Made by a program: the position numbers and the translations under genes
In this document: piece after piece, positions 27,568 to 42,797 of the stretch
Layout: each line of letters begins with the position of its first letter
Position numbering within the stretch: the first letter of the stretch is position 1
NCBI GenBank assembly: GCA_938009745.1
Contig: CALLII010000031.1
Span: forward strand, 1-42,797
Origin: an uncultured Flavobacteriales bacterium
GTDB taxonomy: Bacteria; Bacteroidota; Bacteroidia; Flavobacteriales_D; CAJJDF01
Reading direction: 5' to 3'
DNA length: 42,797 nt
Notes under the pieces: model-generated
Database searches by the model: none
What the model was told of the DNA's origin: nothing
Seen by the model: only the letters and a program-made list of their open reading frames with translations

Positions 27568-29022
27568 TTGAGCACTATATACGATAAATACGAAACAGTA
27601 ATTGGACTAGAGATTCACGCTCAGTTACAAACAAAGACCAAAGCATATTCTAGCGATAGAAATGAATATGGAGCAACACCCAACACCAATGTTAGTGTAG
27701 TAACTTTAGGTCACCCAGGAACTTTACCACTTTATAATAAGGAGGCCGTAAAGTTTGCTGTAAAAATGGGATTAGCTTGTGAAAGTGGCATTACTCAAGA
27801 CATGATTTTTGCAAGAAAAAACTATTTCTATCCAGATTTACCAAAAGGATATCAAATAACCCAAGACGAAACACCAATTTGTACGGGAGGTTATATTCAA
27901 ATTACTGATGCAGATGGTAACCCTAAAAAGGTAACATTAACCAGAATTCATCTTGAAGAAGATGCAGGAAAAAGTATTCATGATTTAGATCCTTACAACA
28001 CACTAATTGACTTAAACAGGGCAGGAACTCCTTTGATTGAAATTGTAAGTGAGCCAGAAATTAAATCTTCGCAAGAAGCATATGACTACGTTACAGAAGT
28101 GAGAAAGCTAGTTCGTTACCTTGATATTTGTGATGGAAACATGGAAGAGGGAAGTTTAAGATGTGATGCGAACGTATCAGTAATGCTTAAAGGAGCAAAT
28201 AAATTTGGGAACAGAACAGAGGTAAAGAATATGAACTCAATGAGAAATGTTCAGAAAGCCATTGATTATGAGGTAAAAAGACAAATTGATTTATTAGAGC
28301 AAGGAGAAACTATTGCTACTGAAACAAGAAGTTTTAATGCAGCTGATGGCTCTACTATTTCTATGAGAAGTAAGGAAGGGGCTAACGATTACCGTTTCTT
28401 CCCTGAGCCAGATTTACAGCCATTAAGGGTTTCTGAAGACTACATAAACAAAGTGAGAGAAGTAATGCCTCCTCTGCCTAATCAGCTAATTAAAAAGTAT
28501 ACTGAGGAGTTAGAATTATCGGAGTATGATGCACATGTATTAACCGAAAACAAAGAAGTAGCTCTTTACTTTGAAGAAGTAATAAAAACTCAAAAAAACT
28601 ATAAGTCTGCATCAAACTGGGTAACAGTAAACATCAAGTCTTATCTTAATGAAAAGGCTATCGAAATAGATGAGTTTGGTGTGAATCCTGCTACTATTTC
28701 GGAGTTAATCCAGCTTATAGAAGACAATAAAATAAGTAATTCGGTTGCCTCTCAAAAGGTATTTCCACTACTTATCGAATCACCAGAAAAATCACCATTA
28801 GCAATTGCACAAGAAAATAATTGGATTCAAGATTCTGATGAAGATGCAATGCTGGAGCTAGTGAATAAAGCGTTAGCAAAATTCCCTGCAAAAGTAGAAG
28901 AATACAAAAGCGGAAAAAAAGGTCTTTTAGGTTTGTTTATGGGAGAAGTGATGAAACAGTCACAAGGTAAAGCTGACCCAAAAGTTGCCAATCAATTATT
29001 AATGAAACAATTAGAAAAATAA
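27568..29022 (+). CDS. gatB: Aspartyl/glutamyl-tRNA(Asn/Gln) amidotransferase subunit B, TTG start
   Basis: YETVIGLEIHAQLQTKTKAYS, GHPGTLPLYNKEAVKFAVKMGLA, RKNYFYPDLPKGYQITQ, MEEGSLRCDANVSV, NDYRFFPEPDLQP. Confidence 0.97.
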   Translation: MSTIYDKYETVIGLEIHAQLQTKTKAYSSDRNEYGATPNTNVSVVTLGHPGTLPLYNKEAVKFAVKMGLACESGITQDMIFARKNYFYPDLPKGYQITQDETPICTGGYIQITDADGNPKKVTLTRIHLEEDAGKSIHDLDPYNTLIDLNRAGTPLIEIVSEPEIKSSQEAYDYVTEVRKLVRYLDICDGNMEEGSLRCDANVSVMLKGANKFGNRTEVKNMNSMRNVQKAIDYEVKRQIDLLEQGETIATETRSFNAADGSTISMRSKEGANDYRFFPEPDLQPLRVSEDYINKVREVMPPLPNQLIKKYTEELELSEYDAHVLTENKEVALYFEEVIKTQKNYKSASNWVTVNIKSYLNEKAIEIDEFGVNPATISELIQLIEDNKISNSVASQKVFPLLIESPEKSPLAIAQENNWIQDSDEDAMLELVNKALAKFPAKVEEYKSGKKGLLGLFMGEVMKQSQGKADPKVANQLLMKQLEK

Positions 29023-29033
29023 TAAGTTTTAAT

Positions 29034-30197
29034 ATGAAAAAATTAAGTTTATATATTCTCGTTCTTTTCGCACTATTAAACTGCGAAAAAAAAGCCAATC
29101 ACGTAATCAATGGATCTGTTGATATGATAGGTTTAGCCGAAAATCAACAAGTGTATTTGTATGCACTTGAAGATAAATTTTTAACACCAATTGATTCGGT
29201 TGTTCTAACCAAAGAAGGTAAGTTTACTTTAAATATTAAAGAGCCAAAAAAAGGAGTTTTCCACTTTGGGAGTTCGCTTCGTAATACTTTTCCAATAGTA
29301 TTGGATTCTGAAACTAAGGAAATGAATTTAGAGATAAATAATAACCAGCAGTTCGCTATGGATTATACTGTTTCTGGTTCTAAATCTTCTGCTCAAATTT
29401 CCGAGTTCTACAACAAGGTTTATGACATGATGATTTTTAATCAAAAGAAATCTGAGGAAAGAAATATGGTTTCAAACAATCCAGAATCAATTTCATCAAT
29501 TGAAATGGAGATGATGAAAAAAAATCAGGAGTTTTTGGAGTATAGAAAAAACTACATTAAAAGCAACAAAGGATCTGAGGCACTAATAGCAGTAATAGCT
29601 CAAATCGATCCAAACTCCGAGATGGAATTACTGAAAGAAGTAGCTACAGACATTAACTTAACTCTTCCTAATTCACCATACTCTAATAGTTTAAATGAAG
29701 ACATTAAAAGATTAGAAGAGCAACAGGCTAAACAAATAGAAGAACAAAGAAAGCAAGAGGGAAAGATGAATGCAATGCTTCCGATAGGAGGAATGGCTCC
29801 GGAGCTGGACTTCCCAAGTCCAAATGGCAAGAATATCAAGTTGTCTTCATTAAGGGGGAAGGTTGTGTTAGTAGATTTTTGGGCATCTTGGTGTAGACCA
29901 TGTAGAGCTGAAAATCCTAACGTAGTTAGGCTGTATAACCAATATAAATCTAAAGGATTTGAAGTATATAGTTTTTCTTTAGATGATAACAAAAGCAAAT
30001 GGGAGGAAGCGATAAAGACTGATGGTTTAGTATGGAAATCTCACACTAGTGATTTAAAACAATGGCAAACTGAAGCTATAAATTTATATGGATTCAGAGG
30101 CATTCCTTTTACTGTTTTAATTGATAGAAATGGAAAAATTTTAGCCCGAGGATTAAGAGGATTAGAGTTAGAAGAAAAACTTAAAGAACTATTATAA
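29034..30197 (+). CDS. TlpA-family thioredoxin-like lipoprotein with DUF4369-like N-terminus (CRPC active site)
   Basis: Lipobox-like ALLNC; VLVDFWASWCRPCRAENPNVVRLYNQYKSKGFEVYSFSLD. Confidence 0.92.
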   Translation: MKKLSLYILVLFALLNCEKKANHVINGSVDMIGLAENQQVYLYALEDKFLTPIDSVVLTKEGKFTLNIKEPKKGVFHFGSSLRNTFPIVLDSETKEMNLEINNNQQFAMDYTVSGSKSSAQISEFYNKVYDMMIFNQKKSEERNMVSNNPESISSIEMEMMKKNQEFLEYRKNYIKSNKGSEALIAVIAQIDPNSEMELLKEVATDINLTLPNSPYSNSLNEDIKRLEEQQAKQIEEQRKQEGKMNAMLPIGGMAPELDFPSPNGKNIKLSSLRGKVVLVDFWASWCRPCRAENPNVVRLYNQYKSKGFEVYSFSLDDNKSKWEEAIKTDGLVWKSHTSDLKQWQTEAINLYGFRGIPFTVLIDRNGKILARGLRGLELEEKLKELL

Positions 30198-30213
30198 TTT
30201 AGATATTGGCTCA

Positions 30214-31323
30214 ATGAAAAAGCACATTTTTTTACTATGTATCTTAGGGTTTTTCACCCAGCAAATAGTTGCTCAAAGTCAGTTTGCCGTAAAGGGTAAA
30301 ATAAAGAATAGTAAATCTAAAAAAGTTTGGATTTACAACCTTGATAGGTCTATAAGTGATACACTTGATTTAAATTTCTTTGGAAAATTTAAATATGCCA
30401 ATACTATTGCAGATAATCAATTACTTTTTGTAAAACCCTTAGATGATGAAGCGCCAATAGTTTTAAAAATCAAGCCAGATTCTAAGATAAAATTGGTGTC
30501 TAAGTTACCAGGAGCTCAGCTTAATTTAAAAGTAAGAGGAGCACAAGGATCCGAGAAAATGAATGAGTTTTTAAACATTATGTCTCAATATCAAAGTGAT
30601 ATATTGAACAATGAAGAAAAAATGTATAAGGACGAAACAGCTGATGGTCAGTATTATTACGACAGCATAATTTCGGGACTAAGAACACAATCTAAGAGCT
30701 ATTTAAAGGAGTTTATTGATGGAGCAAAGAATTCCGAAGTGATTATTGTAGGAATGGAATACATTGATTTTGATTCTGATTACGAACATTTGTTGTCCAT
30801 GGAGAAGGGGATGAGAAGAAAGTATGAGAACACTGAAATGCATGAAAGAGTTAAAACAGCTATTTATAAGTATGAAATAGCTCAAATTAAAGTTAAAAAT
30901 ATTGGTGAAAGAGCCCCTCAATTAATCCTGCCAGGAGTTGACGGTAAGGATGTTAAAATGGAAGATTTAAAAGGAAATTATATTTTAATTGACTTTTGGG
31001 CATCATGGTGTGGTCCATGCAGAGCCGAACATCCCAGATTAATTAGATTATATAATACATACAATGAGCAAGGTTTTGAAGTATATAGCATTGCACTAGA
31101 TAAGGACAAGCAAAAATGGCTAGAAGCTATTAAAAAAGACAACTTACCTTGGGAGTATCACGTAAGTAATTTAATGATGTTCCAATCTCCAGCTGTAGAT
31201 ATATATGATGTGAAATCAATCCCATTTAATGTACTGATTGATAGAGAAGGGAATGTAATAGCATTTAATTTAAAAGGACAAAAGTTAGAAGATAAATTGA
31301 ACGAAATTTTTGAAAATGAATAA
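30214..31323 (+). CDS. TlpA-family thioredoxin-like protein (CGPC)
   Basis: Signal peptide ending IVAQSQ; LIDFWASWCGPCRAEHPRLIRLYNTYNEQGFEVYSIALDKDKQKWLEAIKKDNLPW. Confidence 0.92.
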   Translation: MKKHIFLLCILGFFTQQIVAQSQFAVKGKIKNSKSKKVWIYNLDRSISDTLDLNFFGKFKYANTIADNQLLFVKPLDDEAPIVLKIKPDSKIKLVSKLPGAQLNLKVRGAQGSEKMNEFLNIMSQYQSDILNNEEKMYKDETADGQYYYDSIISGLRTQSKSYLKEFIDGAKNSEVIIVGMEYIDFDSDYEHLLSMEKGMRRKYENTEMHERVKTAIYKYEIAQIKVKNIGERAPQLILPGVDGKDVKMEDLKGNYILIDFWASWCGPCRAEHPRLIRLYNTYNEQGFEVYSIALDKDKQKWLEAIKKDNLPWEYHVSNLMMFQSPAVDIYDVKSIPFNVLIDREGNVIAFNLKGQKLEDKLNEIFENE

Positions 31324-32365
31324 GACACTAATTATTACGTTACTTATTGGGCTTTTTATTAGCACTGGTTATTCGCAAGAAAACACAGTAATAAAAGGGA
31401 AAATGAAAAAGGGCAGAGGAACTGTTGTTTACTTAAACCATAACAAAGGAAACCAAGTAGTAAAAGTTGACTCCTGTAAAGTTAATTTTTTGGGTAACTA
31501 CAAGCTTGAAACACCAGTTGAAACTGATGATTTCTTTTCTTTATCTACAGTAGAAAATGACAAAGAAACTCAGCTTTTAATTCTTAAAAAAGAGGAGCAA
31601 ATCAAGATTAAAACAACCACTGATTTTAAAAACAAAGACTATCAAGTTTCGGGCTCCAAGGATAATGAATTAATCCAACAATATTATTTGGTTAAAAGCT
31701 CAGATATAACAAAAGATTCAATGTCTAAGTATGCTTTTAATTTCGTAAAAGATAATTCTACTTCACTAGTAGTATTTGTTGCTTTAAACGATATTATTGA
31801 GCCTAAAGAAGCAATAAGTATTGCCGCAAAAGGAATAGGAGAAACTTATCCAAAAACATTGTATCACACAAGTTTGTTAACTGCTCAAAGACAAATAGCT
31901 CAAGCAGAAAGAACTAAGAGAAATCAACCAAAGCCTAAAACACCAGTAGGAAGTATTGCACCTGAAGTAAATATGACAAGTCCTGATGGGAAACTTATTA
32001 CTTTAGAATCACTGAGGGGCAAGTACGTATTAATTGATTTTTGGGCATCATGGTGCGGTCCTTGCCGAAGAGAAAACCCAAATGTTGTTAATTTATATAA
32101 GAAGTACAAAGATCAAGGCTTTGAAGTTTACAGTGTTTCTCTAGATAAAAATAAAGCTGCTTGGATGGGGGCAATTAAAAAAGATAATTTGATTTGGAAA
32201 AGTCATGTGAGTGACTTAAGAGGTTGGGGTTCAGCAGCAACTCAGATATATGGGTTTAGAGGAATTCCTTACACAGTACTTATTGATAAAGAAGGTAAAG
32301 TAATAGGAACTCGTTTAAGAGGTGCAGCTTTAGGGAAAAAACTTCAAGAGATTTTCGGTAATTAA
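31310..32365 (+). CDS. TlpA-family thioredoxin-like protein (CGPC)
   Basis: LIDFWASWCGPCRRENPNVVNLYKKYKDQGFEVYSVSLDKNKAAWMGAIKKDNLIW; overlaps the preceding gene (an alternative ATG at 31316 is possible). Confidence 0.92.
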   Translation: MKMNKTLIITLLIGLFISTGYSQENTVIKGKMKKGRGTVVYLNHNKGNQVVKVDSCKVNFLGNYKLETPVETDDFFSLSTVENDKETQLLILKKEEQIKIKTTTDFKNKDYQVSGSKDNELIQQYYLVKSSDITKDSMSKYAFNFVKDNSTSLVVFVALNDIIEPKEAISIAAKGIGETYPKTLYHTSLLTAQRQIAQAERTKRNQPKPKTPVGSIAPEVNMTSPDGKLITLESLRGKYVLIDFWASWCGPCRRENPNVVNLYKKYKDQGFEVYSVSLDKNKAAWMGAIKKDNLIWKSHVSDLRGWGSAATQIYGFRGIPYTVLIDKEGKVIGTRLRGAALGKKLQEIFGN

Positions 32366-33183
32366 TTAATAAATCAACAGTTATCCAAGAAGACACTAAA
32401 AGAAAACGTGATAATGTTCAATCATTTGAATTACCTAGTGGTAAGAAAATTTATTTTGCCTCAGATTTTCATTTAGGAGTCCCATCTCATGAAGAAAGTA
32501 GGAAGCGAGAAGATAGAATTGTGAGTTGGTTAGACTCAGTTAAAAATGATGCTTATAGAATATATTTAGTAGGTGATATTTTTGATTTTTGGTTCGAGTA
32601 CAAACGCGCTATCCCAAAAGGTTTTACAAGGTTTTTAGGTAAAATTGCCGAATTAACAGACTCAGGAATAGAAGTCGAGTTTTTTACTGGAAATCATGAC
32701 ATGTGGATGTTCGACTACCTCAAACAAGAACTTGGTGTTAAAATTCACAAACAAGAAATAGAACTTAATGTTAACGGAAAATCTATTTTTATAGCTCATG
32801 GAGATGGTTTAGGCCCTGGTGACAAGGGTTACAAGTTTATAAAGAAAATTTTTTCAAGCCGAATATGCCAATGGCTATTTGCTCGTTTACATCCTAATTT
32901 TGGGATTGGCTTAGCTAATTTTTTCTCAAAATCTAGTCGTAAACACTCCGTAAATGACAACAAGTTTTTAGGAGAAGACAAGGAATGGTTAATTACATTT
33001 TCTAAAGAAAAGCTAAAAAGTAAACATTTCGATTTCTTTATTTTTGGCCACAGACATCATCCCATTGAAGTGCAATTAAATGAATCATCTAAGTACATTA
33101 ATTTAGGAGAGTGGATTTCCTATAATACTTTCGCTAAGTTTGATGGCGAAAATATCGTAACTAATACGTATACAAAGTATTAG
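32365..33183 (+). CDS. lpxH: UDP-2,3-diacylglucosamine diphosphatase; putative non-canonical ATT start
   Basis: In-frame KKIYFASDFHLGVPSHEESRKREDRIVSWL..., VGDIFDFWFEYKRAIPKG, FTGNHDMWMFDYLKQELGVKIHKQ, AHGDGLGPGDKGYKFIKKIF, FGHRHHP. The ORF-track start (GTG 32521) removes the catalytic SDFHLG motif; no ATG/GTG/TTG lies in frame between stop 32359-32361 and 32521. Confidence 0.9.
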   Translation: MNKSTVIQEDTKRKRDNVQSFELPSGKKIYFASDFHLGVPSHEESRKREDRIVSWLDSVKNDAYRIYLVGDIFDFWFEYKRAIPKGFTRFLGKIAELTDSGIEVEFFTGNHDMWMFDYLKQELGVKIHKQEIELNVNGKSIFIAHGDGLGPGDKGYKFIKKIFSSRICQWLFARLHPNFGIGLANFFSKSSRKHSVNDNKFLGEDKEWLITFSKEKLKSKHFDFFIFGHRHHPIEVQLNESSKYINLGEWISYNTFAKFDGENIVTNTYTKY

Positions 33184-34220: not shown

Positions 34221-37200
34221 ATGAGAAACAAACTACTGTTAACTGTATCGTTTTTATTACTTGGTATAGCTTCTGCATTTGCGCAATTAGCTCAAACCTC
34301 AATCTCACCATCCATTTGTGCTGCAGACGGATCTGTGAGTTACACATTCACTCCAGCTTCCGCTTCTGGATTCTTTAGCTTAACTGCTGGCCCAGCAACT
34401 TATCCTGGTTTAAATCAGCTTCAAGGTTCTGGAAACTTTTTTGCGCTTCCAGCAGGTAATTATACTGTCACTTATACTGACGGAGCTAACCCTGCATTCA
34501 CTGACAATTTTACTATTGCAGGAACATACATAGAAGGTATTTTTGGTGTAGATACGGTAATTGACGCAATTTGTCCTAACCAAGGAGAGATTCACGTGTC
34601 ATTAACAGATGGGGTTCCTCCTTATCAGTATAGACTTTTGCATACTGATTCGGCTGCTGGCAATTACCAGCCTTATGTTTCTTCTGGTATTTTTACAGGA
34701 TTAAGAGCTGGAACATATTCAGTACAATCGCTAGATAATTGTGGAGTTCCAAAACAGATATCAGGTTTAGTTGTCGATTATCCAAATGGAGGACCTTTGT
34801 CTTATAATTTCAATGGAGCAGGTGATGTTCGTGCTTCTGATGAAGCTACCTCATTCCCTACAAGTTGTACAGAGACTACTGTAGCTATTATGGGAAGAAG
34901 AAACAATCTTTTTCAAGCACAAAGTACTAATACAGCTTATTATTTTGATGGAAATGGAGTTGGTGTTGCTGATCAAACAGATCCAAATCAAGTTCCTTTA
35001 ACAATGATTGGTGGATTACCACCATACTCTTATTCTATTGTAGAGTCAGAAGCTTATTCCTTTCACCCTCCAATTACTGATAGGTTAAATGATTTAAGAC
35101 ATGACACTCCATATTCAAGTCAATCTTCTACTACTTCTACAACTTATTTTGGTTTAGGAAGAGGAATTGAATTTGATGTAGCTAATGATTTAACTATTTA
35201 CTCTGTGAGTATGATAGGTCAAAGGTCTGGTTATAATGCTTTAATAGTATTGTATGATAACCTTGGAAATGAGCTTTACAGGAAATGGGAAGAGCAAGAT
35301 GTTAATTCAGCAAATGATAACGTAGCAAGTTTAGGTTGGTTTGTACCTGCAGGTACAGGTTATAGAATGACTGTTGAAGCAATTAATTCTCCAGGTAGGT
35401 TAGAGAGTGCTTTTTATTCTACAGGTGTTAATTACCCAATTGCTGCAGGTGATATTACGGTTACAGGTAATGCTGATCCTTCTGTGGATGCAAGAATATT
35501 AAATTTCTTTGATGCAATAGTTTATACTAAAAATCCATCTCCTGTTGCTACCAATTCTACTCCAATATTTTCTAACATTCCAAGAACAAATGCTAACACA
35601 CACACTGTAATTGCAGAAGATGGATGTGGTCAAAAGATTTATAGGTCTATCACTACTAAAATTCCATTAGAATATGTTGGGATGAGAAGATCTGCCGCAG
35701 AATGTGGAATCGGTCCTGATCAATTATACCCAGATAATAACGTATATACTTTTTTACATTATGATCCAGCCCAGCATTTTTATACCTATGTTCACAAGGG
35801 TAACTCAGTGGGTGGTACTTTTCCTTATACTTTTACTGTAACTTCGGATATTGGTTATTCGCCAGACCCTATTACAACCTCAAAAGGATTTATTAATGCA
35901 AATACTACTTCTACATCTGCCTATTATGATGATGTAAAATTAAGAAACTTAGATGGTAGTCAGTGGCAGCCTACTCCTGGTTCTGTTGTGTCTGTTAATA
36001 TTACAGATGCCTGTGGTGAGTCAATCACAGAGGTTTTTGGTCCACCTTCAGGAAATACACCCATTGAAGAAATACTTACAAATAATGACCTTTCAGGTTG
36101 TGCACCTTGGAGAAGATATAGAATTTATCATAATCCTTATGTAGATACTTTTGAGAATTTTAAATTGAATATTAATCCTTTAACGGGAGGTGCTCATGCA
36201 AGAGTACTTACAAGCGTTGATTATTTTAACCCTGAAATTGATTACTATCAAGGGGCGACAATGAGAGGTAATACTTCTCTTTATCCTTATTTTTTACCAG
36301 GTGATTACGAAATAGTTTTCACAGGGGTATGTTCAGGGGATGAATTAAAAGACACCATCACGGTATTGCCAAGTAGTTTTTCTTTCAATGCTACTGCAGT
36401 TCAGCCTTGTTCTAGCACACCTACTGGACAAATAATGGTTGACCATACTGGTAGTCAAATTTATACTTCGCCAGTAGATTTGATTTATGCAGGACCTTAT
36501 GACGCTTCTATCAACTATGCAACTGCAACACCATTAGAACAAAGAGTTGTTTCAGGTAATATGACAACATTTAGCGGTTTAGCTCCAGGAACTTATACTA
36601 TTATTCATGGAAGTACAAATAACGCGTACAGATTTACAATGAATTGTGCAGAATACAGAACGATAACTATTATTCCTTATAAGGACCCAAGCATAGTATT
36701 AAATTACGACCCAATTTGTGCACCTGCAACTACAGGAAATGTTTACGTAACTGTTTCAAACGGAATACCTCCTTTTGTATATGAGTACAAATTAGCATCT
36801 AACCCTAATGTAGCTGATTACTTATTAACCTCTCAGTCTTCTCCAGTATTCACAGCATTACCAGGAGATGTATATAACATAAGAGTTACAGATTCTTGTG
36901 GACAAGGTACAGTAGGTACTATTGATAATGGTCAAGCATTTGTTTTGCCTCCATTAACTTCTAATGCACCAGCAGGTATTTGTGTAGGAAGTCAATTAAG
37001 AGTTTCTACAGTTTATTTCCCAAATGCAACTTATGTTTGGAACTTTAATGGATTACCAATAGCTGGTGCCGCAGATACTAGTGTTTACATTAAGAATAAC
37101 ACTACTGCTGCAGATGGAGGGAATTACTCAGTTGATGTAACCGTTCCAAGCTGTGGTACTTCAACAGCCTTGCTTGCAATAACAAGTGTAGTAGGAACTA

Positions 37201-40200
37201 CTACAGCATTAAGTAATGCTACACCTGATAGATTTTGTGAAGGAGCAGGTTCAATTCTGTTAGAAGGAGGTGCAACAACTCCAGCAGCTTTAACAACTGC
37301 GGTATGGAGTCAAGTTAGTGGTCCGATCTCCCCATTAACTCCAACAATCACTCAGGTAGGAAATGACGCTACAGTTACTGATGTATCCAATACTGATGGA
37401 CCTCCAGAAGATCCTTACGTTTTTATGTGGGAAATAAATGACGGTAACTGTACCTCAAATTCTTTTGATTCAGTTTATATTCATAGAAACCCACCAACTG
37501 CTTATTCTGGTTTCGATCAGAATTTGTGTGAAGCATCAACTGCAACTATGAGTGCAACTGCAATTCCTTTCGGATTTGGATATTGGACTCAAACTTCAGG
37601 TAATCCTGTTATAATATCAGATACTACGGATCCAGCTGCAACACTTACTGGAATGATTTGGCCAGATACAGTTGTTATGAGATGGAATGTAGTAAATGAT
37701 TCTGCAAATGCAACTTGTACTAGTTTCCACGAAATAATGTTAATAAACAAAGTGCAACCAATAGCCTCAACTGCTAATGCTGGAGCTGATGATACTGTAT
37801 GTGGTGGTACTACTTATGTTTTACAAGCAAGACCGATACCTGCAGATTCAGGAATTGGAAGGTGGTCGGTTGTTTCACAACCAGGTATTGCACCAACTTT
37901 TAATACTAATACTAACCCAAATGCAACTGTTACAATGTCAACTGGAGGTGAATATATCTTTGTTTGGGCAGTTAGCAATGGAGTTTGTAGTGCAGTAACT
38001 GATACGGTTAAAATATTCCTTATTAATGCAAATGCAGGTGCAGACATTGTAGTTTGTATGGATAATTTAGCTGGATTAAGAATGAATGGGGATACTGTTG
38101 CTGGTTTACCAGGAACATGGTCTTCTGCATCTCCTCTTACTTTTACACCTAATGGAGTTGCTGGAGTAGATACTGCTTTAGTGACAGGTATTACGGCAGG
38201 AACTCACATTGTAACTTATACAGTTACTTCAGGTTTATGTACTCAAACTGATGATGTAACTATTTTGGCAAGTAACCCACCTTCAGTATCAATGGCTGGT
38301 ACAGATCAATTAGGTCTTTGTAAAGATACTGCCGTTTTAGAAGCAAACATTCCTTTAGATGGTTCTGGAGTTTGGACACAAATTAGTGGTCCTAATACTG
38401 CAATAATGACGGATTTTGATTCGGCATTTAACATTATCGAAGGATTAATTGTAGGGTCTTACGAGTTTGTTTGGACTATTAGTAATCAGCCTTGTGCACA
38501 GGAATTGGATACAGTTGTGATTGAAGTAACTTCTTTACCACCAACAGCAACAATTGTTGCTTTAACTAATCCTACTTGCGTAACTACTGGCTCTGTTACC
38601 TTAAGTGGTTCCCCAGTTGGTTCTTATGAGTATTCTTTGGATACATCAATGGGTTATCAACCAACAGCAACATTCTTTGGACTAGATACTCTAACATATA
38701 GAGGTTATGTAAGATCTTTAACTAATCCAGCATGTATTTCAAGAGCTTCTGCATCAGTAACTTTAGTAGATACATTGCCGGGACCTATGTTTGATACTGC
38801 TTTCTTTACACCAGTTAGTTCTTGTAATGGAACTACTACTAGAGGTTCTATAACAGCAGTTGCTACAGGAGGAAATGGAACTTTAACTTATAATTTAACA
38901 GGATCTTTTACAGCTACTAATAATACTGGTATCTTTACAAATTTATTACCAGGAACATACACTGTTATTGCTACAGACAGTATTAATTGCCCTGTAGACA
39001 TGGTTACAAGTTTTGAAATGCCAGTAATTTCATGCGATACTTTATTTGCAGGTATTCCTGTAACTGGAGGTACTGATACTACTTGTCTTAATACACCTAA
39101 CACAGGTGGACCTTATTCAATAGGATCTTGTACAGGAACTGATGGGACGTATGATGGTGTTTTATTTAACAAATATGATTCATGTGTAGTTTATCCATTT
39201 AATATTGCAACACTTGTTTTACCATTTGCTGGTGATACAGCATGTGTTGTTATTTGTGATACTGTTGATAATGCAGGAATGAATCAAATACTATGTGATA
39301 CAACTATATTAATATACTACCCAATACCAGTACCAGATACTACGGTAACTTTATTACCAAGTAATGGTGGATCAGTTACAGTATGTGTTGATACGAGTCA
39401 AGTATTGGGAACAAACTTAACTTATAGTTCATGTAAAGGAGCAACAGCAGGTGTATTCACTCCATCAACAGGAAATTGTTATACATACATTCCTTTGATT
39501 AATCAGATTGACACTACGTGTGTAATTGTTTGTGACGAGAATGGAGTATGTGATACTTCGGTATTTGTTTTTATTCCAGCCTTATCAAACGATACAGTTA
39601 TTTCAACTAATCCTGTAACTTGTGTTGATACTACAGAAATGCCAGCACCATTCCATACTATAACTGGATGTGATGGTTTGTCACCAACAACTACTTCAAA
39701 TGGAGGGACTGCGACAATAGATCCAGTAACAGGATGTGTAACAACAACACCAGATTTCACATCTACAAATTCAGATACGACATGTATTATAGTATGTGAT
39801 ACAGTTAATGGAATATGTGACACAACTATCATTATTACGGTTCAACCTCCAACACCAGATACGGTTGTTCAGTTTACAAATGGAGGTTCAGTAGATAGTT
39901 GTTTATCAACAAGTGAATTATTAGGAAGTATGTTTACTTACTCAAGTTGTGGAAGTCCAGTACACGGAGTACTGAGTAACAACAATGATACTTGCTTTAC
40001 TTATATTCCAATAAATGATAATATTGATAGTTCATGTGTAATCATTTGTGATGAATACGGAATATGTGATACTACTTATTTCTATTACTTACCACCAGTA
40101 ACACCAGACACAATTGTAACAACAAATCCAATAACATGTGTTGATACGACTGAGTTAATGGGAGCAATGGTAGATTCGATAGCAACATGTGATGGAATGA

Positions 40201-42797
40201 ATATGAGTAGTAATGGCGGAGCAGTAGTAATAGATCCAATAACAGGATGTGTAACAACAACTCCAGACTTCACAAGTTCAAACTTTGATACAACATGTAT
40301 TATCGTATGTAAATCAGTAGCAGGAGCAGTAATTTGTGACACTACGATTATAGTAACAGTAGCACCACCAACAATTGATACAGTAGTTCAGTTAACAAAT
40401 GGAACAACAACAGACAGTTGTATTACAACAAGTCAGTTACCAGGAACTATGTTTAATTACACGAGTTGTGGAGCACCAGCAAATGGGGTATTAAGTAATG
40501 TAGATTCATGTTACAGATATGTACCAACAACAAATGTGTTAGATACTGCCTGTGTAATTATCTGTGATGAGTTTGGAATCTGTGATACAACAATCTTCAT
40601 TTATGTACCACCAGTAACTAATGATACAGTTATAACAACTAATCCAATTACTTGTGTAGATACTAACGAGTTGATGGGAGCAAGTGTAGATTCAATCTCA
40701 ACCTGTGATGGAATGAACATGAGCAGTAATGGAGGAGCAGTATTAATAGATCCTGTAACAGGATGTGTAACAACAACTCCAGATTTCACAAATGGTATTA
40801 CTGATACTACTTGTATTATTGTATGTAAGAATATTAGTGGAGTAGTTGTATGTGATACAACAATTATCATCACTGTTCAACCACCTACACCAGATACAAT
40901 TATCCAATTAACTAATGGTAATCCAACAGATAGCTGTTTAGCACAACCTGAATTGCCAGGATCAATGTATACTTATACCAACTGTGGGAATCCAATAAAC
41001 GGACTTTTAACAAACAGTAATGATACTTGCTTTACATACACACCAATAAATAATGTGTTAGACACTGCCTGTGTAATTATCTGTGATGAGTTTGGAATCT
41101 GTGACACTACGATTTTCATTTATGTACCACCAGTAACTGTAGATACAATATATACGTTAGATACAAATGTATGTGTAGATACGACAGAGTTACCAGGAAC
41201 AAGACACACAGTAACAGGATGTGATGGATTAAGTCCAACAACCACTAGTAATGGCGGAACAGTGACATTAGATGCAGAAGGATGTGCAACAATCTCACCT
41301 GTATTCACTACTAGTAAGACTGATACAACATGTATTATAATCTGTGATACGGTATTCGGAATCTGTGATACAACTTTAATCATCAACATGAGAAGAGCAG
41401 TACCAGACACGATAGTAGAGTGTATTCCAAGGGATGGCCAAGCAAATGATTCAAATATGAATACTAATGATTTACTAGGGCCAGTAACAACAATTAGTGT
41501 ATTTAAGCTACCAGCACATGGTCAGTTTACATTAACAAACGATACTAACTCTAGTTACCAGACTTCACCATTCCCAGTATTGGATACGGTACAAGTTTCT
41601 TTCTGTGATGAATATAACTTCTGTGATACTTTCACATTCATTTATATTCCACCAATGACCAATGATACTATCTACACGCAAGGTGCAGGAGTAACATGTG
41701 TTGATACAACAGAGATGCCAGTAACTTATACTAGTATCGCTACTTGTGATGGAATGAACATGACTAGCAATGGAGGAACAGTGGTAGCATTACCAGGAGG
41801 ATGTGTAGATATCACTCCAGACTTTACAACAAGTATTGTAGATACAACATGTATTATTTTATGTGATACAATCTTACCAATGTGTGAGTGTGACACTACT
41901 TACATCATTAGTTTTGCACCAACAATGCCAGATACATTTGCAATACAATTACCAAAAGGAACAAACACAGCAGATACATGTTTAACAACAGCAGAATTGT
42001 TTGGAACAACTTATACTTATAGAAGATTAGGAGCACCAACTCCACATGGACCAGTAACTACACATAATGATACGTGTATCAACTATGTTCAGACATCAAC
42101 TACAAAGTATTTAGATACAGCAAGAGTATTAATCTGTGATGAGTACAATAATTGTGATACGACAGTTATCATTTATGTACCAACACCAGATCCAGATACA
42201 TTATTAGTAGGACCTGTAATTCCAGTAAGTAATGTTGATACTTGTGTGAGGTTAGAGTCAACATTTATGACAGGTCACTTTATAAGTACTTGTGATAGTT
42301 CACTTACAACCAATTCAGGAGTTCCAGTAACAATTACAGGACTATGTGTAAGGTATCCAGTACCAGCACCAGTATTTACAGGAGATACTGCTTGTATTAT
42401 AGTATGTGATACGATTTTAAATATTACAATTTGTGATACAACATTAATCGTATACTTACCAGATACAACACCACCAACAATTATCTGTAAAGATGATACA
42501 GTATACTTAGATAACTTTGGAACTGTAACAATTGATACAAGTAATGTAATGGATACTGTGTTTGATAATACATTGATAAACGCAGTTTGGTTAACACCAA
42601 CTTCATTCAACTGTGCTAATGTTGGACCAAATATGGTAACAGTATACGCAAGAGATACCAATAGAAATATTGATAGCTGTATGTCAACAGTGACTGTATT
42701 AGATACGATATCTCCAATGGTAATGTGTCAGAACATCACTATTCAATTGGATAGTAATGGAAACGCATCTATCCTAGCAGTAAATGTAGATGGAGGA
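34221..42797 (+). CDS. Giant multidomain surface adhesin-like protein, 3'-truncated by the window edge (at least 2859 aa)
   Basis: Signal peptide MRNKLLLTVSFLLLGIASAFAQ. Frame spot-checked at 35943, 37263, 39543 and the last codon 42795-42797; 8577 nt is divisible by 3. SprB-like repeats, PKD/Ig-like repeats, six-Cys modules and HYR-like modules. Missing from the ORF track because no stop occurs in the window. Confidence 0.9.
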   Translation, partial: MRNKLLLTVSFLLLGIASAFAQLAQTSISPSICAADGSVSYTFTPASASGFFSLTAGPATYPGLNQLQGSGNFFALPAGNYTVTYTDGANPAFTDNFTIAGTYIEGIFGVDTVIDAICPNQGEIHVSLTDGVPPYQYRLLHTDSAAGNYQPYVSSGIFTGLRAGTYSVQSLDNCGVPKQISGLVVDYPNGGPLSYNFNGAGDVRASDEATSFPTSCTETTVAIMGRRNNLFQAQSTNTAYYFDGNGVGVADQTDPNQVPLTMIGGLPPYSYSIVESEAYSFHPPITDRLNDLRHDTPYSSQSSTTSTTYFGLGRGIEFDVANDLTIYSVSMIGQRSGYNALIVLYDNLGNELYRKWEEQDVNSANDNVASLGWFVPAGTGYRMTVEAINSPGRLESAFYSTGVNYPIAAGDITVTGNADPSVDARILNFFDAIVYTKNPSPVATNSTPIFSNIPRTNANTHTVIAEDGCGQKIYRSITTKIPLEYVGMRRSAAECGIGPDQLYPDNNVYTFLHYDPAQHFYTYVHKGNSVGGTFPYTFTVTSDIGYSPDPITTSKGFINANTTSTSAYYDDVKLRNLDGSQWQPTPGSVVSVNITDACGESITEVFGPPSGNTPIEEILTNNDLSGCAPWRRYRIYHNPYVDTFENFKLNINPLTGGAHARVLTSVDYFNPEIDYYQGATMRGNTSLYPYFLPGDYEIVFTGVCSGDELKDTITVLPSSFSFNATAVQPCSSTPTGQIMVDHTGSQIYTSPVDLIYAGPYDASINYATATPLEQRVVSGNMTTFSGLAPGTYTIIHGSTNNAYRFTMNCAEYRTITIIPYKDPSIVLNYDPICAPATTGNVYVTVSNGIPPFVYEYKLASNPNVADYLLTSQSSPVFTALPGDVYNIRVTDSCGQGTVGTIDNGQAFVLPPLTSNAPAGICVGSQLRVSTVYFPNATYVWNFNGLPIAGAADTSVYIKNNTTAADGGNYSVDVTVPSCGTSTALLAITSVVGTTTALSNATPDRFCEGAGSILLEGGATTPAALTTAVWSQVSGPISPLTPTITQVGNDATVTDVSNTDGPPEDPYVFMWEINDGNCTSNSFDSVYIHRNPPTAYSGFDQNLCEASTATMSATAIPFGFGYWTQTSGNPVIISDTTDPAATLTGMIWPDTVVMRWNVVNDSANATCTSFHEIMLINKVQPIASTANAGADDTVCGGTTYVLQARPIPADSGIGRWSVVSQPGIAPTFNTNTNPNATVTMSTGGEYIFVWAVSNGVCSAVTDTVKIFLINANAGADIVVCMDNLAGLRMNGDTVAGLPGTWSSASPLTFTPNGVAGVDTALVTGITAGTHIVTYTVTSGLCTQTDDVTILASNPPSVSMAGTDQLGLCKDTAVLEANIPLDGSGVWTQISGPNTAIMTDFDSAFNIIEGLIVGSYEFVWTISNQPCAQELDTVVIEVTSLPPTATIVALTNPTCVTTGSVTLSGSPVGSYEYSLDTSMGYQPTATFFGLDTLTYRGYVRSLTNPACISRASASVTLVDTLPGPMFDTAFFTPVSSCNGTTTRGSITAVATGGNGTLTYNLTGSFTATNNTGIFTNLLPGTYTVIATDSINCPVDMVTSFEMPVISCDTLFAGIPVTGGTDTTCLNTPNTGGPYSIGSCTGTDGTYDGVLFNKYDSCVVYPFNIATLVLPFAGDTACVVICDTVDNAGMNQILCDTTILIYYPIPVPDTTVTLLPSNGGSVTVCVDTSQVLGTNLTYSSCKGATAGVFTPSTGNCYTYIPLINQIDTTCVIVCDENGVCDTSVFVFIPALSNDTVISTNPVTCVDTTEMPAPFHTITGCDGLSPTTTSNGGTATIDPVTGCVTTTPDFTSTNSDTTCIIVCDTVNGICDTTIIITVQPPTPDTVVQFTNGGSVDSCLSTSELLGSMFTYSSCGSPVHGVLSNNNDTCFTYIPINDNIDSSCVIICDEYGICDTTYFYYLPPVTPDTIVTTNPITCVDTTELMGAMVDSIATCDGMNMSSNGGAVVIDPITGCVTTTPDFTSSNFDTTCIIVCKSVAGAVICDTTIIVTVAPPTIDTVVQLTNGTTTDSCITTSQLPGTMFNYTSCGAPANGVLSNVDSCYRYVPTTNVLDTACVIICDEFGICDTTIFIYVPPVTNDTVITTNPITCVDTNELMGASVDSISTCDGMNMSSNGGAVLIDPVTGCVTTTPDFTNGITDTTCIIVCKNISGVVVCDTTIIITVQPPTPDTIIQLTNGNPTDSCLAQPELPGSMYTYTNCGNPINGLLTNSNDTCFTYTPINNVLDTACVIICDEFGICDTTIFIYVPPVTVDTIYTLDTNVCVDTTELPGTRHTVTGCDGLSPTTTSNGGTVTLDAEGCATISPVFTTSKTDTTCIIICDTVFGICDTTLIINMRRAVPDTIVECIPRDGQANDSNMNTNDLLGPVTTISVFKLPAHGQFTLTNDTNSSYQTSPFPVLDTVQVSFCDEYNFCDTFTFIYIPPMTNDTIYTQGAGVTCVDTTEMPVTYTSIATCDGMNMTSNGGTVVALPGGCVDITPDFTTSIVDTTCIILCDTILPMCECDTTYIISFAPTMPDTFAIQLPKGTNTADTCLTTAELFGTTYTYRRLGAPTPHGPVTTHNDTCINYVQTSTTKYLDTARVLICDEYNNCDTTVIIYVPTPDPDTLLVGPVIPVSNVDTCVRLESTFMTGHFISTCDSSLTTNSGVPVTITGLCVRYPVPAPVFTGDTACIIVCDTILNITICDTTLIVYLPDTTPPTIICKDDTVYLDNFGTVTIDTSNVMDTVFDNTLINAVWLTPTSFNCANVGPNMVTVYARDTNRNIDSCMSTVTVLDTISPMVMCQNITIQLDSNGNASILAVNVDGG
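36960..38560 (+). repeat. PKD/Ig-like repeat block inside the giant adhesin gene
   Basis: Recurring W.Q.SGP/(Y/H).F.W.(I/V)SNG.C pattern: AVWSQVSGPISPL...YVFMWEINDGNC, GYWTQTSGNPV...VVMRWNVVNDSANATC, GRWSVVSQPG...YIFVWAVSNGVC, GTWSSASPLT...HIVTYTVTSGLC, GVWTQISGPNT...YEFVWTISNQPC. Confidence 0.75.
39046..42460 (+). repeat. Array of about 13 six-cysteine Ig-like modules, alternating A/B subtypes (doublet about 173 aa)
   Basis: Module core C-VDTTEL...TCDG...SNGG...GCVTTTPDFT...DTTCIIVCDT..GICDTTIIITV (A) alternating with SCLSTSELLGSMFTYSSCG...DTCFTYIPIN..DSSCVIICDEYGICDTTIFIYVPPV (B). A-type starts near 39597, 40110, 40628, 41140, 41668. Confidence 0.85.
42461..42797 (+). repeat. HYR-like modules at the right edge of the giant adhesin fragment
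   Basis: DTTPPTIICKDDTVYLDNFGTVTID... and DTISPMVMCQNITIQLDSNGNASILAVNVDGG match the D.(I/T)(P/S)P.(I/V).C...I.(I/V).LD..G pattern of HYR-like modules in large Bacteroidota secreted proteins. Confidence 0.65.

Follow-up and report, generated by a model that had tools for sequence, protein, structure and literature searches.

The lpxH gene of an uncultured Flavobacteriales bacterium, found in a 42,797-nucleotide stretch of DNA analysed as a whole (hereafter the window), appears to be a real and intact gene whose translation begins at a near-cognate codon (AUH), a reading to which we give a probability of about 0.64. The evidence comes from the reading frame itself, from the position of its junction with the preceding gene, from the recurrence of missing canonical starts in lpxH of other Bacteroidota, and from infC of the same genome.

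An lpxH reading frame without a canonical start

31316-32365, forward strand: TlpA/ResA-like thiol-disulfide oxidoreductase, the last of three tandem copies, stop codon TAA 32363-32365 (open reading frame; Redoxin, AhpC-TSA and DUF4369 matches)
32365-33183, forward strand: LpxH-like UDP-2,3-diacylglucosamine diphosphatase, 272 codons counted from ATT, stop codon TAG 33181-33183 (profile and structure-sequence matches)
32521-32523, forward strand: GTG, the first in-frame canonical codon of lpxH (codon listing, position of the motif)

Listed codon by codon, the LpxH frame passes from TAA 32359 through TTA to ATT 32365, and onward to ATT 32518 and GTG 32521. Between that TAA and that GTG there is not a single ATG, GTG or TTG, just as an earlier note on this DNA had claimed. 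The same note placed the peptide KKIYFASDFHLG, with its DxH metal-binding motif, ahead of the first canonical codon, and it is indeed encoded at 32443-32478, 5′ of GTG 32521. Because initiation at this GTG would delete the motif, it is not the real start of lpxH, and the gene has no canonical start 5′ of its first conserved catalytic residue. The near-cognate codons upstream of the LpxH core are ATT 32365 and ATC 32383, after which come AAG 32443 and ATT 32449 within KKIYF.

The remainder of the gene looks sound. The best NCBIfam matches of the predicted protein are to two LpxH models, NF003743 (92 bits, cut-off 134) and TIGR01854 (76 bits, cut-off 190), both below cut-off, and a phmmer search against the PDB matched LpxH chains only (best E=9e-15). 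The metallophosphoesterase motifs DxH, GDxxD, GN(H/R)D, HGD and GHxH are all kept, in the forms SDFHLG, GDIFDFW, GNHD, HGD and GHRHH, with GNHD standing where 5k8k, the best-matching solved LpxH, has GNRD. The protein aligns with its relatives over its full length, and the gene body is without interruption. The window also holds lpxK, and no LpxI was found in the window genome or in five other genomes of its family, so that lpxH is probably needed. The product may accordingly be called LpxH-like, for which the nearby lpxK and the lack of a detected LpxI are circumstantial evidence of hydrolysis of UDP-2,3-diacylglucosamine.

The TlpA-lpxH junction

32363-32367, forward strand: TAATT stop-start junction, with TAATG at the same position in G002, G003, G004 and G005 (alignment)
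32365-32424, forward strand: 20 codons (60 nt) absent from relatives, before the common core (INKSTVIQEDTKRKRDNVQS) (alignment, codon usage)

In the codon listing, ATT 32365-32367 shares a base with the TAA (32363-32365) of the TlpA gene, whose ATG at 31316 lies two codons 3′ of a TTG at 31310; the TAATT overlap is thus as the earlier note described it. The note had further supposed that TAATT stands in place of an ordinary TAATG, and this gains positional support: TAATG occurs at the junction in four of five family relatives, and alignment of the TlpA C-termini (EIFGN, EIFSK and EIFAE, each followed by the stop) sets the TAATT of the window at the same place as the TAATG of the relatives. In G001 the lpxH ATG lies two bases downstream of the TlpA stop, with no TAATG overlap. 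The same-genus relatives (n=3), which are the closest genomes, with a protein about 70% identical, all begin lpxH with a plain ATG. Position therefore supports the view that the ATT of the window occupies a former ATG position and that TAATT is derived from a TAATG coupled junction.

By codon usage, the 20 extra codons resemble coding sequence when read in the frame of LpxH. There they score 0.27 bits per codon, a value reached by 67% of real coding pieces of this genome, by about 1% of out-of-frame pieces and by 10% of stop-free intergenic pieces; in the TlpA frame, which is that of ATG 32414, they score -0.17 bits per codon, and only 0.5% of coding pieces are as low. The possibility that the 60-nt insert is a repeat or duplicated piece was ruled out, there being no second copy in the window genome, and viral contigs held no further copy of this DNA.

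As to the neighbourhood, three tandem TlpA/ResA-like genes occupy 29034-32365 between gatB and lpxH, and the distance between gatB and lpxH stays within a few kb in many genomes of the order. The gatB gene (27568-29022) has a conserved weak start of its own, TTG in the window and in all same-genus relatives and GTG in the two remaining members of the family. An open frame of at least 2859 aa (34221-42797) runs off the contig end.

Two candidate start codons

32365-32367, forward strand: ATT, a near-cognate codon that could serve as start by coupling to the TlpA stop (its A-rich context is poor, at the 5th percentile of ATG starts in this genome)
32383-32385, forward strand: ATC, the other near-cognate codon that could serve as start (its A-rich context is good, at the 39th percentile among true starts and the 99th percentile against background)

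Contexts were scored with a matrix built from 129 genes of the window genome, which has the A-rich pattern known for Bacteroidota (PMC6847099). The earlier note preferred ATT 32365 as the start; the TAATG of the relatives at that position speaks for it, and the clearly better context of ATC 32383 speaks against it. The matrix does not exclude ATT 32365, because the TAATG starts of the relatives score similarly low or lower (-1.5, -4.2, -5.3 and -11.3, three of the four below the -2.0 of ATT 32365), as expected of a start reached by coupling. On position, we would favour ATT 32365 over ATC 32383 by about two to one. Both lie off the usual distance, relatives and other near-cognate cases starting 5-8 codons before IYF.

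Ribosomes finishing on the TlpA stop would, in the likelier of the two schemes, reach the overlapping AUU 32365; in the alternative, initiation would be at AUC 32383, reached by way of its A-rich leader. The expected consequence would be a low output of LpxH that is tied to translation of TlpA. We infer the codon used, the coupling and the low expression alike.

Recurrence of weak and missing starts in lpxH

The lpxH loci of Bacteroidota, 127 distinct ones in all, divide into 91 with an ATG, 31 with only TTG or GTG and five with none of these. Order-level relatives contribute 50 loci, four without a canonical start and 19 with only TTG or GTG. The same start test was applied to control genes of the same genome set (coaE, tpiA and gatB, with tpiA taken by strict motif), where none of 128 orthologues lacked a canonical start and 18 had only weak ones. 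The difference in missing starts (4/50 vs 0/128) has a Fisher p of 0.006, and that in weak or missing starts taken together (23/50 vs 18/128) a Fisher p of 1.7e-5, both values generous, as the genomes are related. The missing-start pattern in lpxH therefore exceeds chance, and as a recurring feature of this gene it is probably more than sequencing error.

The strongest case is the genus g24 (L279-L288), in which one and the same position reads GCC ATA AAA in nine of ten species and ACC ATG AAA in the tenth. DNA identity of lpxH within the genus goes down to 70%, synonymous divergence is near saturation, with more than half of the fourfold sites differing between its main branches, and of the other all-isoleucine columns only one in nine retains a single codon. 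With the stop of the preceding gene the ATA forms the overlap ATAA, which is ATGA in the tenth species, so that part of its conservation may reflect a preference for a TAA stop; still, the ATA start is tolerated across all nine species. Two of the species have an in-frame TAA two codons 5′ of the ATA, with no other nearby start, and coaE, tpiA and gatB sampled from g24 members start with ATG. With ATA as the sole likely start of lpxH close to the core in nine species, g24 makes a better test case than the window.

Elsewhere, the sisters L011 and L016 differ in lpxH, with CTG in L011 at the position of the ATG in L016; this CTG overlaps the upstream stop as CTGA. L129 has ATC. Should initiation be at ATT, the window's TAATT would be a stop-start overlap like those of g24 and L011. 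Not included among the clean near-cognate cases is L091, where a run of nine A and an ATG out of frame make an indel plausible. The ATT of the window is not itself conserved, its same-genus relatives having ATG; conservation of a near-cognate codon in lpxH is seen in the ATA of the nine g24 species. Nothing in the papers searched connects lpxH with AUU or with any non-canonical start.

The window genome offers a further instance in infC (L277, G000:C3:31942-32145, forward strand), which has no ATG, GTG or TTG start and reads ...GCC ATA GCG TTA AGA, with ATA as its likely start. The motif was found in nine other infC loci, and all of these likewise lack a canonical start. Since infC lacks a canonical start here, near-cognate initiation very probably operates in this organism. 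Together with the ATA of the nine g24 species and the CTG and ATC starts elsewhere, the ATA of infC strengthens the earlier proposal that lpxH is initiated at a near-cognate codon. Against this reading, the exact arrangement of the window was found in one genome only, a 165-contig assembly of 90% completeness.

Alternative explanations

32414-32416, forward strand: ATG out of frame with lpxH (in the TlpA frame), as is TTG 32426; it bears on the lesion and frameshift explanations only

An assembly error or a real small lesion, in which a base near the lpxH start was lost or miscalled and the true allele begins normally, is the strongest competitor, though we consider it unlikely. In its favour are GTG 32408, ATG 32414 and TTG 32426, which lie just out of frame at the right distance, the TTG one base away from the position of the relatives' ATG. 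Breaks of this kind do occur in drafts at about 1 in 100 genes, as where lpxH of G082 (G082:C176:7678-8393) is split into two pieces in the assembly. That figure comes from a single split lpxH in about a hundred genomes and scales to only about 0.1% for the 70 bp around the start, whereas about 3% of the other lpxH loci have near-cognate starts. Moreover, the context of ATG 32414 is poor (4th percentile), the start segment is coding by codon usage in the LpxH frame and not in that of TlpA, and the 60-nt difference together with this coding look points to real divergence. According to the earlier note, a sequencing error would have been indicated if relatives shared an ATG at the position of this codon. 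Relatives do carry that ATG, but it indicates ancestry as much as error, because other lineages truly swapped the ATG of lpxH for near-cognates.

It is improbable that lpxH is simply not usefully expressed in this strain, the insertion having parted its body from its start and the gene being in decay. The 60 extra nucleotides and the loss of the ancestral start position are what such a history would leave behind, yet the body is unbroken with every metal-binding motif present, no backup LpxI was found, and lpxK is nearby.

Least probable is expression by frameshift, in which initiation at ATG 32414 or within TlpA is followed by a -1 slip into the LpxH frame: at AGA AAA TTT 32444-32452 the P-site AAA tRNA could re-pair after such a slip to give ...RK-IYFASDFHLG, but there is no in-phase X XXY YYZ heptamer, a leader RNA structure such as stimulates programmed slips of the dnaX kind was rejected (z = -0.1, no Rfam match), and the relatives, with their plain ATG starts, need no slip site. 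The earlier note had already found a TlpA-LpxH fusion by frameshift unsupported, and its rejection stands with a refinement, namely that an A AAA AAC heptamer is present at 32336. This heptamer does not have the phase that a -1 slip in TlpA requires, and any -1 slip there would meet TAA 32359.

Relation to known near-cognate starts

The infC gene of E. coli and other bacteria, which encodes IF3, has a near-cognate start and is autoregulated by IF3. A near-cognate lpxH start would resemble it in being a conserved start of this type in a housekeeping gene, and infC of the window genome is also without a canonical start. It would differ in that LpxH is no translation factor and in that near-cognate starts of lpxH turn up only sporadically among lineages.

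In pcnB of E. coli an AUU start, experimentally proven (Binns and Masters, 2002, as cited in PMC13009471), throttles a gene that does not belong to the machinery of translation, as AUU would in lpxH; for lpxH, in contrast, the start is read from the DNA, with a stop-start overlap. In S. aureus, cvfC1 (AUU), ccpN (AUA) and citZ (AUA) have near-cognate starts, those of cvfC1 and ccpN being conserved among relatives, and in poor medium AUU and AUA starts yield about 10% of the expression obtained with AUG (PMC13009471). Extended Shine-Dalgarno pairing, however, is predicted to direct initiation at cvfC1 and ccpN (PMC13009471), whereas Bacteroidota ribosomes do not use Shine-Dalgarno sequences (PMC6847099, PMC9976891), and therefore selection of a near-cognate start would need an A-rich context or coupling. 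In L. monocytogenes, rsbW mutants with ATG changed to ATA or ATT, together with infC (ATT) and rnhC (ATC), likewise present near-cognate starts as an evolved route to altered protein output, although these are other genes in another phylum and the rsbW changes arose under laboratory selection (PMC13068326). Such changes are rare, with one of 61,358 ancestral AUG starts having turned to AUU in 36 groups of close genomes (PMC5622118). A lowering of LpxH by its weak start, coupling of that start to TlpA and control of it by IF3 are extrapolated from the S. aureus cases (PMC13009471) and from infC and pcnB.

Implications

Few near-cognate starts are known in bacteria. A clean case would be a lipid A gene whose AUG several lineages have lost and in which at least nine species share a fixed AUA. 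Gene callers that are limited to ATG, GTG and TTG would miss such genes, or begin them internally with the active site cut off. A lpxH of this kind would serve two questions, how ribosomes without Shine-Dalgarno pairing choose a weak start and whether such a start throttles LPS synthesis. More tentatively, lpxH output across Bacteroidota could be held down at initiation by weak, repeatedly near-cognate starts (AUA, CUG, AUC, AUU) that often overlap the upstream stop and are chosen without Shine-Dalgarno pairing, a generalization that we regard as possible and still doubtful. If it is true, lipid A synthesis in these bacteria would respond both to IF3 and to how the gene upstream of lpxH is translated.
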